Shown here one piece after another: positions 44,127-60,332 of a DNA stretch of 64,000 nucleotides. The position numbers and the translations under genes are program-made. The stretch is from Arthonia radiata (taxonomy: Eukaryota > Ascomycota > Arthoniomycetes > Arthoniales > Arthoniaceae), in contig PSQN01000017.1 in NCBI GenBank assembly GCA_002989075.1, positions 682,001 through 746,000 of the forward strand, in the 5' to 3' direction. Positions within the stretch are counted from its first letter, which is position 1; every line of letters starts with the position of its first letter. The notes under the pieces are model-generated. The model was not told the origin of the DNA. It ran no database searches and worked only from the letters and a program-made list of their open reading frames with translations.

Positions 44127-45909
44127 TCAAAATCGGAACTTCAGTCTCCTGTCCTTGTCCCTAGCGGTCAGATTCTCAGGCACTCTGACGCCGCCAACAA
44201 GCTGCATGATATCACCCAGATCATGACCCCCCCGCTTCTGCTGTCCACCTTCAGCCAATTGGTGTGACCGGATATTATTCGAACGCTCGCTGAGGGGCTG
44301 GCGTCGTGGATTCCGGGAAGGTTGGGTAATTATGGCTCGCTTGGGAAGGGCTGTGCTCTTGTGTCTGTGTTTCTCATCTGTGTCTGCTTGTGTTGGTTCC
44401 TCGGCGGCTTGTGGTTTCTGATGGCGTCTTGCTGTAGCTTTGTTTGGCGTGGTAGCCTTCCTCTCATGTGTACTTATTGCAGCAGGAGCAGCAGCCGCAT
44501 CCTTAGCCAGATCTTTCCCTTTTGAACCTTGCGTAGTCTTGACCCTGGGCATTTCCTCGTTGGCGCTTACTGCTTCATGCTCCTCAACTACTCGTGCTTT
44601 TCGACCCCGTTTCGGTGCAACTATTTTTGGCTGCTCGAGTAGTGCATCCTGCGCATCTTGAGATGCAGCGAACTTTTCGACCTCTTTTTCCGACCTCCGA
44701 CCGCGTTTCGCAGTATATGTTTCGCAGCTGTGATCCACGTCCTCGGCCTCCTCCAGATCTTTGGATGGACCTTGGCGCTTCCGAATTGGTTTCTCTGATC
44801 GTTCGGTCAAGTTTGAGAGCTTGGTCGGTGCACCATACTCTTCATATGGGCCTGGATCTTCCTCTTGGCGTGTGACTGGTTGAGAGCTGCCCTCCTCAAC
44901 CTTCTTTCTAGGCCTTTCGATACTCTTTCCGATATGTCTCATGGTGCTGTCAACCGCGGCCCCAAGCTGCTCCCGAGCCTTGGGTGGACGTCCGCGCCTC
45001 TTTACAAGTTTCTCCGGCTTGACTGTCTCACTGGCCGGCTTTATCTGTACGTCCTTTTCTTCGCCCTGTGCAGCTTGTACGTCTTCTACTTGTTCAAGCT
45101 GAACAGTAGGCACATCGATCTCTTTCTTGGGCCTCTTCTTGCTTTTCACAGGCCGTTCAGCAAAGCTCTGATACGTGTCCTCAAGCTTTTGTACAACCTT
45201 GTTTTCTGGCTTAACCGTCTCACTGGCCGGCGTTATCTGCACATCCTTCTCTTCACTTTGCACGGCCTGCTTCTCTTCTACTTCTTCTAGCTCAACAGCG
45301 GGCACATTGACCTCTTTCTTCGGCCTCTTCTTACTCTTCACAGCACATTCTGCGACATTCTGACCGGCTCCCTCAGGCTCTGGCACGATCTTACATGGGC
45401 GTCCGCGCCTCTTCACTGGTTTCTCTGGTGCCGCGACAGCGTTATTGTTCTTCTTGTAACCGGCGGCTCCCTCGACCCCTGGTTGCGCGGGCTGTTCTTC
45501 TCCAGATGCTTGTACCGGCTCGCTCACTCCATCTGCTTGAGGCCCTTCCTCCAGCTTCTTTTCTGCTCGGCGGCGCTTCTGCACTCGCTTCCCAACCACA
45601 GATTTGGCTTCATTTCTACCCTGTTTTTTCTCCCTCGTCTTTCTCGTCTTCTTCACAGCCGTCTCAACTTCCTCCGTTCGCCGGCGCTTAACCGGCCTTG
45701 TCTCTTCCACATCGCCTTCAACATGTACTTCTTCCGCCGGCTGTGGTGGCGGCGCGACGGCTGAGCCGAATCTGAAGCCAAATTGGACGCCCGCAAGCTC
45801 TCGTGCCCTGCAGACTGGTTAGATTGAGAATGAGGACGCGGTTGCTATGTAAACAAACCCGGCTCCGCGCTGCCGTTGCAGGCGGTGTTCTGCGCGCACA
45901 CCTGGACAT
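44127..45909 (-). CDS. AT-hook nuclear protein with internal duplication
   Basis: The main exon (45807-44127) joins a tiny first exon (45909-45902, ATG TCC AG) across a 94 bp intron, giving 562 aa that begin MSRARELAGVQFGFRF. Without that splice the long frame has no ATG near its start. The protein is strongly basic/acidic, with two canonical AT-hooks (KRRGRPCK at 135-142, KRRGRPPK at 272-279). GRK/GRR-type variants occur further on, with many bipartite NLS-like clusters. AT-hooks bind the minor groove of A/T-rich DNA, so a chromatin role is likely. Residues about 159-207 and 223-271 are near-copies (SKKRPKKE..VP..LE.VE...Q...EEKDVQI.PASETVKPE), an internal tandem duplication. The end is RDKDRRLKFRF. 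The family is unknown. A transposon nest begins about 210 bp upstream of the ATG. Confidence 0.7.
45003..45341 (-). repeat. internal duplication in the AT-hook gene
   Basis: Two coding copies at about 45195-45341 and 45003-45149 (minus strand) are similar at both protein and DNA level, for example the shared stretch encoding EEKDVQI and PASETVKPE. The flanking AT-hook coding sequences (KPVKRRGRPCK and KLVKRRGRPPK) are also alike. The original unit was therefore probably one AT-hook plus about 65 codons, duplicated in tandem. Confidence 0.7.
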
Positions 45910-46118
45910 AGGTCAGTTGTTGGGTTCTTGGTGTGGACTTGAGAGTATGAAGTACCGCTGAGCATCCTTCAGCTAGACTTTGCAAAGTGATTGGGCCCGT
46001 TATGTGTGGTCAAAAGTTCTGCGATCTCGAAGAGAGGTAAACAAGGCTGGAGATTGCGGAGATAAGCAATCCGATATGAAAGTTGAGATGGAAGCTGCGA
46101 CCGAGGCTTACCGTGCTT

Positions 46119-46129
46119 GCTGCCTTAGA
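46119..46129 (+). repeat. left 11 bp target-site duplication of the outer element
   Basis: GCTGCCTTAGA occurs here and again at 48684-48694 in the same orientation, directly outside the inverted ends of the outer element. An extra A separates it from the left end. An 11 bp duplication is in the range of Mutator-like elements (8-11 bp) and longer than the 8 bp usual for hAT. Confidence 0.7.
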
Positions 46130-46149
46130 AGGCAAACATGTCCAGTATA

Positions 46150-46284
46150 CCCGCACCCTCCTCACTCGGTCCTATCGGACATAGAATCCTACGCTATTCC
46201 GCTTCGGGTTTCCTCATTCGTCGGTGCTAGCTGAAGCTAGCACCCCACGCTTATACGAAATCTCCGGTCACACGAGATCGATTC
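46150..46284 (+). repeat. left terminal inverted repeat of the pogo-like element
   Basis: The 135 bp begin CCCGCACCCTCCTCACTCGG and are the exact reverse complement of 48015-48149. Within the repeat, 46223-46244 is a perfect hairpin: 9 bp stem GGTGCTAGC / GCTAGCACC around a TGAA loop. The mirrored hairpin lies at 48055-48076. Long terminal repeats with internal palindromes may serve as transposase-binding sites. Confidence 0.92.
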
Positions 46285-46317
46285 GCTTATATTAGCTACT
46301 TATAGATCGTAACAAGC

Positions 46318-48075
46318 TCAGAACTCGATAATCTGCTCACCAATCGATAGCTTGGGTTCCGATCTTATAGCTGGCTTGCTTGTTTTAGCAGTTAGAGCCC
46401 TAGCTTGTCCCGTTCCTGCGTTCTCCGCGCGCCGAGCTTCCCTTTGATCGCCCTCCCGATCCCGCTTTCCAACCATTGTTCTTAAAGAGGAAGCCGTAAC
46501 CACGCCTCCTTTCTGCATCTGGCGACCATCGCCCTTCTTGCGCTTAAGTTCCTCACGTCTGCGCGCTTCTGATTGAATAGAATCGAGATCTTCAAGAGCT
46601 AGATCCCGTTCGGTCATTGCACGCGAACTAGCACGCACAAGCTGGTTAAATGCGTCCCAAGTCGGGTGAACCTGACGATCGGGACCTTGCAGGTACTGTA
46701 CCTGATCTACGATCGAGTTGACGTATTGATCTAGTTTTCGTACCGTTTGGGGAGTTTTAGGCGGCTTTTCCCAATCGGCATCTGGTTCCTAATAGGCTTT
46801 ATACAGGTCCGGTATCTGATCAAGTACCTTACTTGCATCTAACGGCCAGATTCCTGTTTTAGCAAAGCCTGAGCGTATAGTTGCCTCTTTAAACGTGTTC
46901 CTGCGTATCTCTAGAAGCTTATCAAGAAAGTCTGTCTTCCTAAACTTGGTTGCGCCGGAACGTACTGCCCGATCGAGCACCTGCGCGTGGTAGTGCTTCT
47001 CAACTTGGAAGATCGACACGTCAAGCGGCTGCATTAGGTGTGTCATATGCGCTGGGAAGCAGAAGATCTTAATCTTGTGATCGTCGGCATACTGCACGAA
47101 CTCTGCAGTAGCTTGGCCGGCAAACCTATCTAAAAGAAGCAGTCGATATGCTCCCTGTTGCCTCTTTAAGGTAGCTTTGTCGAAGTGCTACAGGTACTCA
47201 AGCATAATATTATTATTAGTATAGCCTGATTCGGAAAGAGCAAGCATCGTCTCGCCTCCGATATCTGTTCTGGCCCAGTGTGCCTAGTGAACGACGCCTG
47301 GAAGCACTACAATTGGGTCTAGCTTCGATTCAGTTGCAGAGATCGTCTCAATTAGGGTAACTAGTGTACGATCTGTTGCGCTTGGAGCTGCTACTCTTGT
47401 CGTATGCGATCGTACTACAACCCAATTCGAAGCTCCTATCCCGACGCGGAAGCCTGCTTGGTCGATATTCCAGATATTATGCGGGTCGATCGCATACTCC
47501 TGTATTAGCTCCCCAAGCTCTTGATACCACTTTCGGATAGTATCTCGGTTCTGCGCCAGGTACCGCGTCATTTCCATTGGCTTCTGGCGTGCTAGCTTAT
47601 ACTGAGGATGCCGAGCTAGCCATCTTTGGCACCAAGACTTCGAAACTTGGGGGAGAGGTGCGTCTGTACCTGCATTTGACGCTCGCGCTAGGATCGAATT
47701 GGCCGCCGATACGATCATACGACGGGTCGGAGCGAGGTAGATCTTCCCTAAGCGATCAATATAGCTACAGAGAGCTCTATCTTGGGCAGTTGTAAGCCGC
47801 TCGGGGGTATTATGGCGCTCCCAGATCGATCCGCGCTTCCGAAAGCGGGCATAAAGCGTCGCGTATGGGATATTATTATCGCGAGCCAGCTGCTTAAAGT
47901 TAAGCTTCTTCTTTAATCGATTGGTATGTAGAAGCTCCTGGATCTTCTGTTCCTGTTTCTGTAGATCTCGTGCCAAATCTGGAAGTTTGAAGCGTAGAAA
48001 GATGGTAGGGAGGTGAATCGATCTCGTGTGACCGGAGATTTCGTATAAGCGTGGGGTGCTAGCTTCAGCTAGCAC
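46318..48075 (-). pseudogene. pogo/Fot1-type transposase, interrupted
   Basis: One minus-strand frame runs from the right terminal repeat to a final stop at 46318. The N-terminal part has a pipsqueak-type helix-turn-helix (KLNFKQLARDNNIPYATLYARF), then a CENP-B-like second DNA-binding region (SKSWCQRWLARHP). The DDE_1 catalytic region follows (NIWNIDQAGFRVG with the first Asp; RLLLLD with the second; PAHMTHLMQPLDV). The usual DGH after the second motif is degraded to DRF. A basic, helical C-terminal region follows. Three in-frame TAG codons (at about 47284-47286, 47188-47190 and 46789-46791) each sit where a glutamine CAG is plausible. This fits CpA-to-TpA change by RIP. No in-frame ATG precedes the helix-turn-helix. 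The copy is therefore not expected to make active transposase. Confidence 0.88.
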
Positions 48076-48149
48076 CGACGAATGAGGAAACCCGAAGCGG
48101 AATAGCGTAGGATTCTATGTCCGATAGGACCGAGTGAGGAGGGTGCGGG
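48015..48149 (-). repeat. right terminal inverted repeat of the pogo-like element
   Basis: The 135 bp are the exact reverse complement of 46150-46284, ending GGTGCGGG before the flanking TA at 48150-48151. The repeat contains the mirrored hairpin at 48055-48076. The inner edge of the repeat lies just before the transposase N-terminal region, so promoter signals for the transposase must lie inside or across this repeat. Confidence 0.92.
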
Positions 48150-48683
48150 TACATCCAAATTTTCAAAATATCTTCGATATACCCTTAGGTTCAATAATAT
48201 TAGGCGTATACTTTCGAGGTATACTACCGATTAAGGTAAGCCTCTTGTTAGTTATTCGAAGTATATTTCTGATTTTATAGAGATCCTAGGAGTGGTACTA
48301 AGGCCTCAGGAGCGCAAAAAGCTAGCAAAAGTGCCTATGTTGAGTTACCTGAGTATGCGATAGACGGTACAAAAGGCCTTATTTACTGTAGAATCTGGCC
48401 TCTCTCTTTAGATACTGCGCATGTCAGAATAGTGTCGCAAAAGCCTTCTCTTTGTGCTGCTAAACGCCCTAAAATCCTGTTGGATACGAGGTGCGGTGCG
48501 CAGGGCGGTGCGTAGGGCAAAAAACCCCTAAATTCGCGCCGATGTATACCAGCGTAAATTGCGATATTTGGGAGTACTACCTTAATCAGTAATATACCTT
48601 TGAGGTACACGCAAGACAATAGCCTTTTTATCGGTATATCGGAGATATTTTAAGAATTTGGATGTACACTGGAGATGTTTGCC

Positions 48684-48694
48684 GCTGCCTTAGA
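48684..48694 (+). repeat. right 11 bp target-site duplication of the outer element
   Basis: GCTGCCTTAGA directly follows the right end (…GTTTGCC) and matches 46119-46129 exactly. It lies about 160 bp beyond the RIB3 stop codon. Confidence 0.7.
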
Positions 48695-48856
48695 TGTGTA
48701 GTCGTACGATTTGACGTTGGGAGGGAAGCTGCGACGGTGCGAACGTCAACAACGTTGGGAGGAGCCTTTCGTCCCATACAGGAAGTTGCGTTGCGCCGCA
48801 CCTGCCAGTTATCGTAAATCGGATCTATTGTATTTCGCTGCTGACCTTGTGTCTGC

Positions 48857-49772
48857 TCACAATCGATCACTCTGCCCTTTCCCCCCCGTCTTCTCCACAT
48901 ACGCAACCATATCCTCAATCGTGCACACCTTGATCCCCCACCGTCTCCCGAACCTCAAACATCCCTCCGCTCTCATCATGCCCGTACTGTTATACACCGG
49001 TCTCTTCACTATCTCCCCGTCTACACCATCGGCCTCTTGCTCCTCCCCATCCTCCTCCACCAACTCACCAATAACCGCAACAGCCGGCTCCTCGCCCGCC
49101 AGTCGTGCAAACTCAACCCCAGCCTCTGTATGACCCCTCCTCGTCCTCACACCACCCTCCCTGGCTATCAGCGGGAGCATATGCCCCGGTCTTCTCAGGT
49201 CGTTGGGTCCAGCACCTTGTCCCAACCTCTCTAAACCCCGCTTCGCGCTCGATCGCGGCTTCGCACCGGCCAGTATATTCGCCGTCGCAGCCCTCTCTAC
49301 TGCACTGATGCCTGTCGTGGTGCCCCACTTCTTCGCCGCGTCGACGGAGACGCAATAGGCGGTGCCATTTGGATCTTCGTTGTCTTCCAATGCCACCATC
49401 CTCTTCAAACCCAACTCCTCCGCACGAGCCTGTGTGAGCGGTGCGCACAGGTATCCGGAGGTATGCCGTATCATGAACGCGCAGGTTTGGGGTGTGAGAG
49501 CAGCGGCGGAGATGATGAGGTCGCCTTCGTTTTCGCGAGACGGGGAGTCGAGGACGATGAGAAATTGACCCTGGCCTATATGAGTGTTAGTATGTAATTG
49601 GGAGGTGTTGCTGTGCGGTGATAGACTTGGGGTAAAGTGTATAGGTGTGCGTACGAAATGCCTCTATGCAGTCTGGTATCGAATCGAACTCGCAATTCGT
49701 GTCGTCATCCCGCTTTCTCTTGACGCCGTTTTGTAGCGCCTCTACTGCTTCATCGCCGTTGGTTACTGCCAT
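48857..49772 (-). CDS. RIB3: 3,4-dihydroxy-2-butanone 4-phosphate synthase
   Basis: Two exons (49772-49655 and 49575-48857, intron 79 bp) give 278 aa; yeast Rib3 is 208. The enzyme converts ribulose 5-phosphate into 3,4-dihydroxy-2-butanone 4-phosphate plus formate, supplying the four-carbon unit of riboflavin. After a 30-residue N-terminal extension with a KRKRDDD patch comes FDSIPDCIEAFRQGQFLIV, then DSPSRENEGDLI (acidic metal and substrate site), FMIRHTSGYLCAPL, GISAVERAAT, and RRPGHMLPLIA with RTRRGHTEAGVEFARLAG. The splice falls inside the FR/QGQF junction and restores the family sequence. It stands alone as the DHBP domain, without the GTP cyclohydrolase II fusion seen in many bacteria. 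No defect was seen; the 3' end lies close to the transposon nest. Confidence 0.94.
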
Positions 49773-57700: not shown

Positions 57701-60332
57701 CATGGAGATGCGCTAGACGGCAGGCCACGTGGCGCACGGACATGAAAACTCTGGCCATCTTTGCTGTTCTCGGTAGGTGATCGACAATCCTCTGCGGCCT
57801 GACCTCAAGGGACCGTCACAGTGATTCAGAAGAGGAAGCCATGAGTGCTGATCTTGAGCGCTGATCGCGGCTTCGCTCGCGCTTGATACACGTGGCCGCA
57901 CACAGCAACACGTGGTAGTGACGATCGATCCCTCAGCAGCGGGGAAGACGCAAACGTAGTCCAGACTGCATCAGATCACGCATGATGTGATGGCACACTC
58001 GTCGAAAACGCCTTGCAACGCCTTCCGTGTTAAATTCGCAGCTGCACTCTACGAGTCACAGCGACCGTATGCCGCTCACATTTGGCGGGATTCTTGTAGT
58101 TCGACAGCACGTTCCTGACGATAGCAAGGGTAGCGTTGCAGGCGCGGCAGCAAGGGCGTTCGATATCGCCATGCTCCCCACCACAAGCATAGCAATCGTA
58201 TCAGTATCCACTCAACCGATTGCAGATAGTTCGTTGACAGCCATGCGATCTGGGATGCATCTGGCCTCTGCTTAATGCATGAACCGGGCCACAATGCCGC
58301 TGTTTGCGGCCCATGCTTGGATGCTGTCGATCACTCCATTGCGATTGGGCGATTCTGCAACCCAGAGCAACCTGCTGCATATCGGATGCATGATAGGTTT
58401 TCACGCGTGAAATGAAGTCTCATTGACTTGGACAATCGCATCGTTCTGCTCGCGTCACAGGCGCATAGATTTTGTGAATACTGAAGCTTTATTTAGACAA
58501 TCTGGAGACGTGTCAACTGCTGGACTGTATTGATTGCTATGACAATACTATTATTAGTAGCGAGCACGTTTAGCTAACCGAGGAGGTAACCAAGGTACAC
58601 ATCATCACGTTTGAAGATGTGAGACTTAAGCGCTTGCAGGAAAGTAAGCTTCTTTGCCGCCTACCCAAAACAACGCACTCGCAAATATACCCTTATAGAT
58701 CTAGATTACTAAGGAACCTTCCGTATAGGCACTGTAACATGGTGCGCTCCACATATATTCTTATTTACAACCTGTGCACCCCTAAGAACACAGTGTCAAC
58801 TTTCTGTAGGCGGGAAATCCACGTCGACAGGCGCCGCAAGCAAGCCACGAACGACAGGCGCTACCTGCCCCTGCTACGCAACACTTACTGTGTATGTCAG
58901 GAAAGGGTACCGACCCTTCCTCGGTCGCAATCAGCAGAGCCTGTGCGCAGAATAGGGAATCTCACATGCTCGACGCCTAACCCCCCAGTCATCTAACAGC
59001 CCAGTTTCTAGGTGTTGGGGTTGTGAACGCGCGCTTTGCGGTCAGCAACTTATCCTGACATGCACAAAGTTGCAAGCATAGAATGTATGATCGAGAGACA
59101 GTGCTGTTGGTCCGCCACTATAACATTGGCCACTTCTCTCATACGGTGGCAATGCAACAGTGTATCCAGCAGCATTTCAAGTGTCCCAGGGGTCAGCGGC
59201 TTAATCCTGGAATAGCTCTGTTTTGGGGCATCGTCCAAGTCCGCAAGGCAGGCAGAGGACAGATACAGAGTAGCCATACAACTACTGGTGGAGCCATTGC
59301 GAGGTTTTGACTCACTCAGGTTCCCGGCGTTGCTCGTACAACCGAATAAGCTGCGAAGTGATCGTGCACAGGGAATGCTGTGCTGGCATTTCGTGCCATA
59401 GGGAACCCAACTACAGAAGAGAAGCTCTCTGCATCCAAAAGTGCGTTGCAGGCGATCCGTGCTTCTTAGAAGACAGGGTAGAGGCCTGAGCTTTCCTATC
59501 GATCAGTTATCAGCTTGAGCAGTTGGTTAGTCCACTAACTCTTCCCCTCGCGGTGAGATTTGGTAGCTCTGCCGCACCGACACTTCAGCAACTCCAGGAC
59601 GGCTGCGCTTTTCTGACTGACTGCACGAGTTCGCTGATGAATAATCATCCTGAACTTAGCCTTCGAATGGCAAATAGCTTTTACTCCCCTCATGATCTTG
59701 TAGCGATGGATAAATTACAGCAAACACCAGAGGATTTGATGTCGCCGTACTCAAAGATCACCGCATCGCTCTTGTCCTAACACGACCAGCGTGTTCCAGC
59801 TCAAGGTCTTCCATGGGGATTGAACAAAGATCGAGCGAGGCTGTAGGACATCTGGTAGAGGAAAGCGCGGAATATAGTTGTAGTCAGTCGAGGGTAGTCA
59901 TCAGCTCTTCCAAACATCTGTAAACCGGAAGCTTTGGGCGATTGATCAGTACTCAAGATGGCGAGAGCCTGTTGTGCAAGTACTTCGTATACGGGATCAA
60001 TGCTACGATCGCGTTTAGTCTTGAAAGCCTGAACAAAGGAGACAAATGAGCGTAGAAGTTACGTGTGCAAGACAGGATTTTTTCCCCTGGTACGAGTTTG
60101 GCTATGAAGCTGCTCGTGTGGCGTTTGGGTTCTGATCTAGATCTGCATAATCCCTGTGTCCGTGACAGACCTTGCACGACCTGGACTTGTATAGCACAAG
60201 CATGCCAACTCACTGCTTTGATGAACCGTAGTCAAAGTTGATGAAAAGACAAACCCTGCCTTTTCAGTTCTATCTCGGAGGCCGGAGATCTCCGGCTTCA
60301 CCGGCCCGAGACCCATCAACAACGTCCCAAGC
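54760..60332. other. long gene-poor stretch
   Basis: This is 5.6 kb between divergent genes (C2H2 factor - and Rrn9-domain +). The first 0.7 kb is the zinc-finger promoter and leader, including an A/G-rich patch at 54.95-54.98 kb. Beyond it, all frames are short and several start at non-ATG codons. A frame at 58619-58996 (125 codons, non-ATG start) has no motif I recognise. Sequence near 58.49-58.78 kb is AT-richer than its surroundings and might be an old mobile-element scrap, but I found no ends or flanking duplication. No tRNA-like or rRNA sequence was seen. Confidence 0.5.

Follow-up and report, generated by a model that had tools for sequence, protein, structure and literature searches.

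Within a 64,000-nucleotide (nt) stretch of the Arthonia radiata genome (contig PSQN01000017.1 of assembly GCA_002989075.1, positions 682,001 to 746,000 of the forward strand; hereafter the window, to which all positions below refer), positions 46119-48694 are occupied by two transposable elements, one lying inside a terminal inverted repeat (TIR) of the other. The inner one is a Fot/pogo-type element of 2,000 bp (46150-48149) with its transposase frame on the minus strand; its TIRs of 135 bp are found, in plus-strand coordinates, at 46150-46284 and 48015-48149, and it is flanked by the dinucleotide TA at 46148-46149 on the left and at 48150-48151 on the right, again on the plus strand. The outer element spans 46131-48683 and consists, on the plus strand, of the terminal 19 nt of its left TIR (46131-46149), which begin with GGCAAAC and end with the duplicated TA, the inner part of the same TIR (48150-48238), a core without assigned strand in which no protein family was found (48239-48577), and a right TIR of 106 nt (48578-48683), the reverse complement of which also begins with GGCAAAC. 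Two plus-strand copies of an 11-bp target-site duplication, GCTGCCTTAGA, enclose the whole (46119-46129 and 48684-48694). An earlier note on this DNA had read the locus as a nest of two transposons, and we consider it very probable that two successive cut-and-paste insertions took place here, first of a probably Mutator-like element and then of a Fot/pogo-type element.

The inner element is sharply delimited, just as the earlier note had described it. Its first TIR is identical to the reverse complement of the second at all 135 of 135 positions, and complementarity extends to 137 when the flanking TA pair is included. TA flanks the element on both sides, TA (or TAA) being the target duplication of Fot/pogo elements, and that this represents a true duplication is evident from an exact 2-nt overlap on the right arm of the outer element, as detailed below. 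Each inner TIR also carries GGTGCTAGCTGAAGCTAGCACC (46223-46244 and 48055-48076), a short inverted repeat with 10-nt arms and a 2-nt spacer, which may serve as a foldback or as a binding site; viral contigs contained no exact match to the central 20 nt of this repeat.

The transposase frame (46318-48114, minus strand) opens at a stop codon at 48115-48117 and closes at a TGA at 46318-46320. It is interrupted by three in-frame stops, all of them TAG (47284-47286, 47188-47190 and 46789-46791), while the remaining two minus-strand frames contain 29 and 39 stops over the same stretch. When the stops were read as X, Pfam returned HTH_Tnp_Tc5 (PF03221, 1.1e-10) and DDE_1 (PF03184, 1.1e-19), both with scores exceeding the gathering scores, and the same families were obtained from the separate stop-free pieces. 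The presumed catalytic aspartates, picked by motif and numbered in the X-at-stops reading, are D218, D329 and D365, with 35 residues intervening between the last two, that is, a DD35D spacing. Together, the domains and this spacing bear out the label "pogo-like" that had been attached to the element. HTH_psq, which is found in some Fot transposases, was not reported by Pfam for the inner element. Among solved structures, the N-terminal piece of the transposase had no match and the DDE piece gave just two weak matches to proteins other than transposases (E 0.079 and 0.55).

Membership of the inner element in Fot/pogo is thus well supported, and its anatomy, in place of a tree, points to the FotC clade. 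According to the available text of PMC7386202, almost all Fot and Fot-like elements are DD35D, TA target sites are restricted to FotC and FotD within Fot, TIRs of about 100 bp are mainly a FotC feature, most Fot TIRs measure 40-60 bp, and total lengths of 1.2-5.2 kb are stated. The inner element resembles FotC as described there in its TA duplication, its DD35D triad, its combination of HTH_Tnp_Tc5 and DDE_1, TIRs longer than 40-60 bp and a length of 2,000 bp that falls within the stated range. It differs from that description in that its TIRs measure 135 bp rather than about 100 bp and in that its transposase frame is broken by the three TAG codons. In addition, the first in-frame ATG (47718) lies within the HTH_Tnp_Tc5 match with none upstream, and the single ATG further upstream on the same strand (47852) is out of frame. 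Because three TAG codons lie in frame and no in-frame ATG precedes the DNA-binding domain, this copy is most likely defective; it does not possess the intact transposase that autonomy calls for, which is not required for membership in Fot/pogo.

For the outer element, we aligned the two pieces of the left arm separately to the right arm. The outer end (46131-46149) matches 48683-48665 at 17 of 19 positions, and the piece on the other side of the insert (48150-48238) aligns to 48666-48578 over 93 columns, of which 69 are matches, 16 mismatches and 8 gaps. The two pieces tile the right arm with an overlap of exactly 2 nt (48665-48666), which corresponds to the duplicated TA. The left arm is therefore continuous once the 2,000 bp and one TA are taken away, and the length of the outer element without them is 2553 - 2002 = 551 bp, in both respects as the earlier note had proposed. 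Tested against 2,000 mononucleotide shuffles per piece, the inner-side piece scored 89 (shuffles: mean 24.5, standard deviation 4.7, maximum 46) and the outer-side piece 30 (mean 9.2, standard deviation 2.1, maximum 19). The direct repeat GCTGCCTTAGA is identical at 11 of 11 positions and, with both strands scanned, occurs in the window at 46119 and 48684 alone; an 11-mer shared at such a spacing, with slack, was seen at 3 of 61,380 positions, all of which are registers of the GCTGCCTTAGA pair. Folded as single-stranded DNA, 48150-48683 outperforms every one of 100 dinucleotide shuffles (z -4.45), which is expected because the element has long inverted repeats.

The order of the two events is secure: the outer element came first and the pogo-like element second, because the inner element together with its TA duplication breaks into the outer arm at a distance of 17 nt from the end of that arm. 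In such a scenario, a probably Mutator-like, non-autonomous element with a length of about 551 bp would have inserted into apparently intergenic DNA and duplicated 11 bp of it. Later, a 2,000-bp Fot/pogo-type element with FotC-like anatomy would have entered a TA 17 nt inside the left end of the outer element, duplicating the TA and splitting the left arm.

As to the superfamily of the outer element, on which the earlier note had made no assignment, the likeliest assignment is a non-autonomous Mutator-like element of the Hop/VdMULE type, which we regard as probable because an 11-bp duplication, TIRs of about 106 nt, GGCAA ends and the lack of recognised coding sequence all fit it. In the available texts, Mutator-like elements are described as having target duplications of 8-11 bp and long TIRs (PMC6446971), a GGNAA terminal consensus is common to Hop1 and the Verticillium VdMULEs, and defective VdMULEs as short as 363 bp are reported (PMC3441728). 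The outer element has a duplication of 11/11 bp, next to which the left junction carries an additional A, and GGCAA at both ends of arms of about 106 nt. It thus shares with Hop1 and the VdMULEs (PMC3441728) the GGNAA terminal consensus and a long target duplication, and its TIRs are comparable in size to the 53-86 bp of VdMULE 1-3 and the 85-99 bp of one fungal group (PMC3441728, PMC6446971). Unlike Hop1 and the VdMULEs, to which it is likened by description and not by alignment, it is a 551-bp element without recognised coding sequence, and its 11-bp duplication contrasts with the 8 bp in the sole VdMULE having one (PMC3441728).

The same nest could instead have been founded by an element of another superfamily, either a hAT element with 8-bp duplications or an unclassified miniature element. 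Such an origin is made conceivable by the fact that neither a transposase nor a known relative links the outer element to Mutator, and the four fixed bases of GGNAA would be matched by chance at a rate of about 1/256 (by arithmetic). Target duplications of hAT elements are 8 bp, however, against the 11 bp seen here, and the 11-bp duplication, the TIRs of about 106 nt and the GGCAA ends jointly fit the description of Mutator-like elements, so we consider this alternative unlikely. As for sub-terminal direct repeats, a trait considered for Mutator-like elements of the Hop/VdMULE type, the exact ones in the outer element are only 7-8 nt long, and GGTATA is present 5 times in 534 bp compared with 0.15 expected from its rate in the window, although this motif was picked after viewing the sequence and its count in part reflects the arms.

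Several observations weigh against a Mutator-like element followed by a Fot/pogo-type element. First, the left GCTGCCTTAGA is separated from GGCAAAC by an unpaired A (46130) that has no counterpart on the right, a refinement of the 11-bp direct repeat reported in the earlier note; because of it, the target duplication measures either 11 bp, with one additional base on one side, or 12 bp, 11 of which match. Second, the inner part of the outer TIR is just 74% identical between the arms, yet the two copies of the target duplication do not differ at all. For this, either the arms must already have been unequal in the parent copy, or 11 bp must have escaped change by chance. Since the 11-mers are identical, some of the divergence between the outer arms may be older than the outer insertion. 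Third, in the available parts of PMC6446971 and PMC3441728 the duplications of fungal Mutator-like elements are stated as 8-10 bp and not 11, and neither of the two frames searched with Pfam gave a match; out of 17 stop-to-stop frames listed, these were the longest ones contained entirely in the outer element, and the search did not include the longest frame overall, which extends into the flank. Lastly, further copies were sought in the window and in viral and prokaryotic contigs. The window contains no second copy of either element, and two outer-arm patterns, one inner-TIR pattern and the N-terminal piece of the transposase had no relatives in the viral contigs. In the prokaryotic contigs, one AT-rich 20-nt pattern gave 17 exact matches in bacteria and archaea, but these ended at 20-25 bp and are attributable to chance.

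That no other copy of the outer arms was found would also be in line with only the pogo-like insertion being real and the outer arms being host DNA with an inverted repeat that is local or due to chance; further short repeats occur locally in the flanks (GGAAGCTGCGAC, at positions 46090 and 48724). Nevertheless, the alignment score of each arm piece lies above those of all 2,000 shuffles, and the 11-mer is confined to the two outer ends within the window, which makes a mere host repeat very improbable. A single composite transposon, with the outer arms as its true ends and the pogo-like part as its cargo or core, would account for arms that flank the whole and bear their own direct repeat, but it can practically be dismissed, given that the inner element, in the middle of the outer arm, possesses TIRs of 135 bp that are complete as well as a TA duplication of its own, that this arm resumes after the inner element with the exact 2-nt overlap, and that core cargo is not expected to break into a TIR after its terminal 19 nt.

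In connection with the timing of the two insertions, the TIRs of the inner element are identical, and those of the outer element share about 74% identity over their inner part. We asked how the three TAG codons relate to these identical ends under two mutation processes. With random substitution, 4.3% of substitutions are nonsense, so that three stops correspond to about 70 substitutions in the transposase frame, and about 11 differences between the TIRs would be expected (by arithmetic) compared with the 0 seen. With mutation of the type caused by repeat-induced point mutation (RIP), 45 of 182 such sites yield a stop and each TIR copy has 10 such sites; here, about 1.3 differences would be expected (again by arithmetic) and finding 0 is unsurprising. 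The RIP indices TpA/ApT and (CpA+TpG)/(ApC+GpT) were 1.02 and 1.03 for the inner element, 1.28 and 0.89 for 48150-48683, and 0.63 and 1.28 for the window. These values are just mildly RIP-like, and the signal is weak and non-specific because TpA/ApT reaches 1.33-1.44 in three other 550-bp segments (58501, 43001 and 54501).

An inner copy already defective at the time of its jump is thus the favoured reading, though short of proof, and the verdict depends on the mutation process. That a copy with a defective transposase has identical 135-bp ends hints that it moved recently and in trans, and we infer that the inner insertion is recent and that this copy was mobilised by transposase supplied from elsewhere. 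A bolder proposal would combine two claims, namely that the outer element represents an undescribed miniature Mutator-like family with an 11-bp duplication unusually long for fungi, and that the inner Fot element was already defective when it jumped and so reveals a recently active, trans-acting Fot transposase. We put this combination forward tentatively and are inclined to doubt that both parts hold.

The nest is real and well delimited, and it is also ordinary, as nested transposons are already well documented in fungi. The available text of PMC4522978 catalogues 78 putative nested transposable element clusters in Mycosphaerella graminicola, 49 of which have a long terminal repeat (LTR) retrotransposon as base; 35 of these 49 have verified target duplications. 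The present nest resembles these clusters in that one element lies within another and target duplications are read from the sequence, and differs from them in having a small DNA element as base and in being situated near genes. Relative dating by nesting has likewise been published, nesting having been used to discuss the relative ages of fungal Tc1/mariner elements (PMC2836289, in the part available). In the literature, insofar as the accessible texts cover it, we did not meet the present pair of outer and inner elements. What the locus may add is the probable Mutator-like assignment of the outer element and an inner copy that moved perhaps while defective. The nest serves as a single-locus clock that orders two transposon families in one genome; it helps the annotation of that genome and leaves general understanding unchanged.

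The nest is situated past the 3' end of a DHBP-synthase gene (48857-49474, minus strand). Besides DHBP synthase, Pfam matches in the window include a cytochrome P450, an FGGY kinase, the V-ATPase 116-kDa subunit and the NADH dehydrogenase 51-kDa subunit, and we take one further open frame to encode a VPS13-like protein. These genes mark the window as eukaryotic and most likely as DNA of a filamentous fungus. At gathering thresholds, Rfam reported nothing in the window other than the snoRNA snR36 (59698-59851, minus strand; 50 bits compared with a gathering score of 43), which is located outside the nest. A reading frame at 44127-45710 had no match in a Pfam search; it is rich in lysine and arginine, contains RRGRP-like motifs that look AT-hook-like by eye, and includes internal 191-nt direct repeats that are 74% alike. 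In the immediate flanks of the nest, the 12-mer GGAAGCTGCGAC is present at 46090-46101 and 48724-48735, that is, beyond the left and right outer 11-mers by 17 nt and 29 nt, respectively, with no further occurrence on either strand of the window, and ACGTTGGGAGG is repeated at 48714 and 48752; both are probably local degenerate repeats of host DNA.
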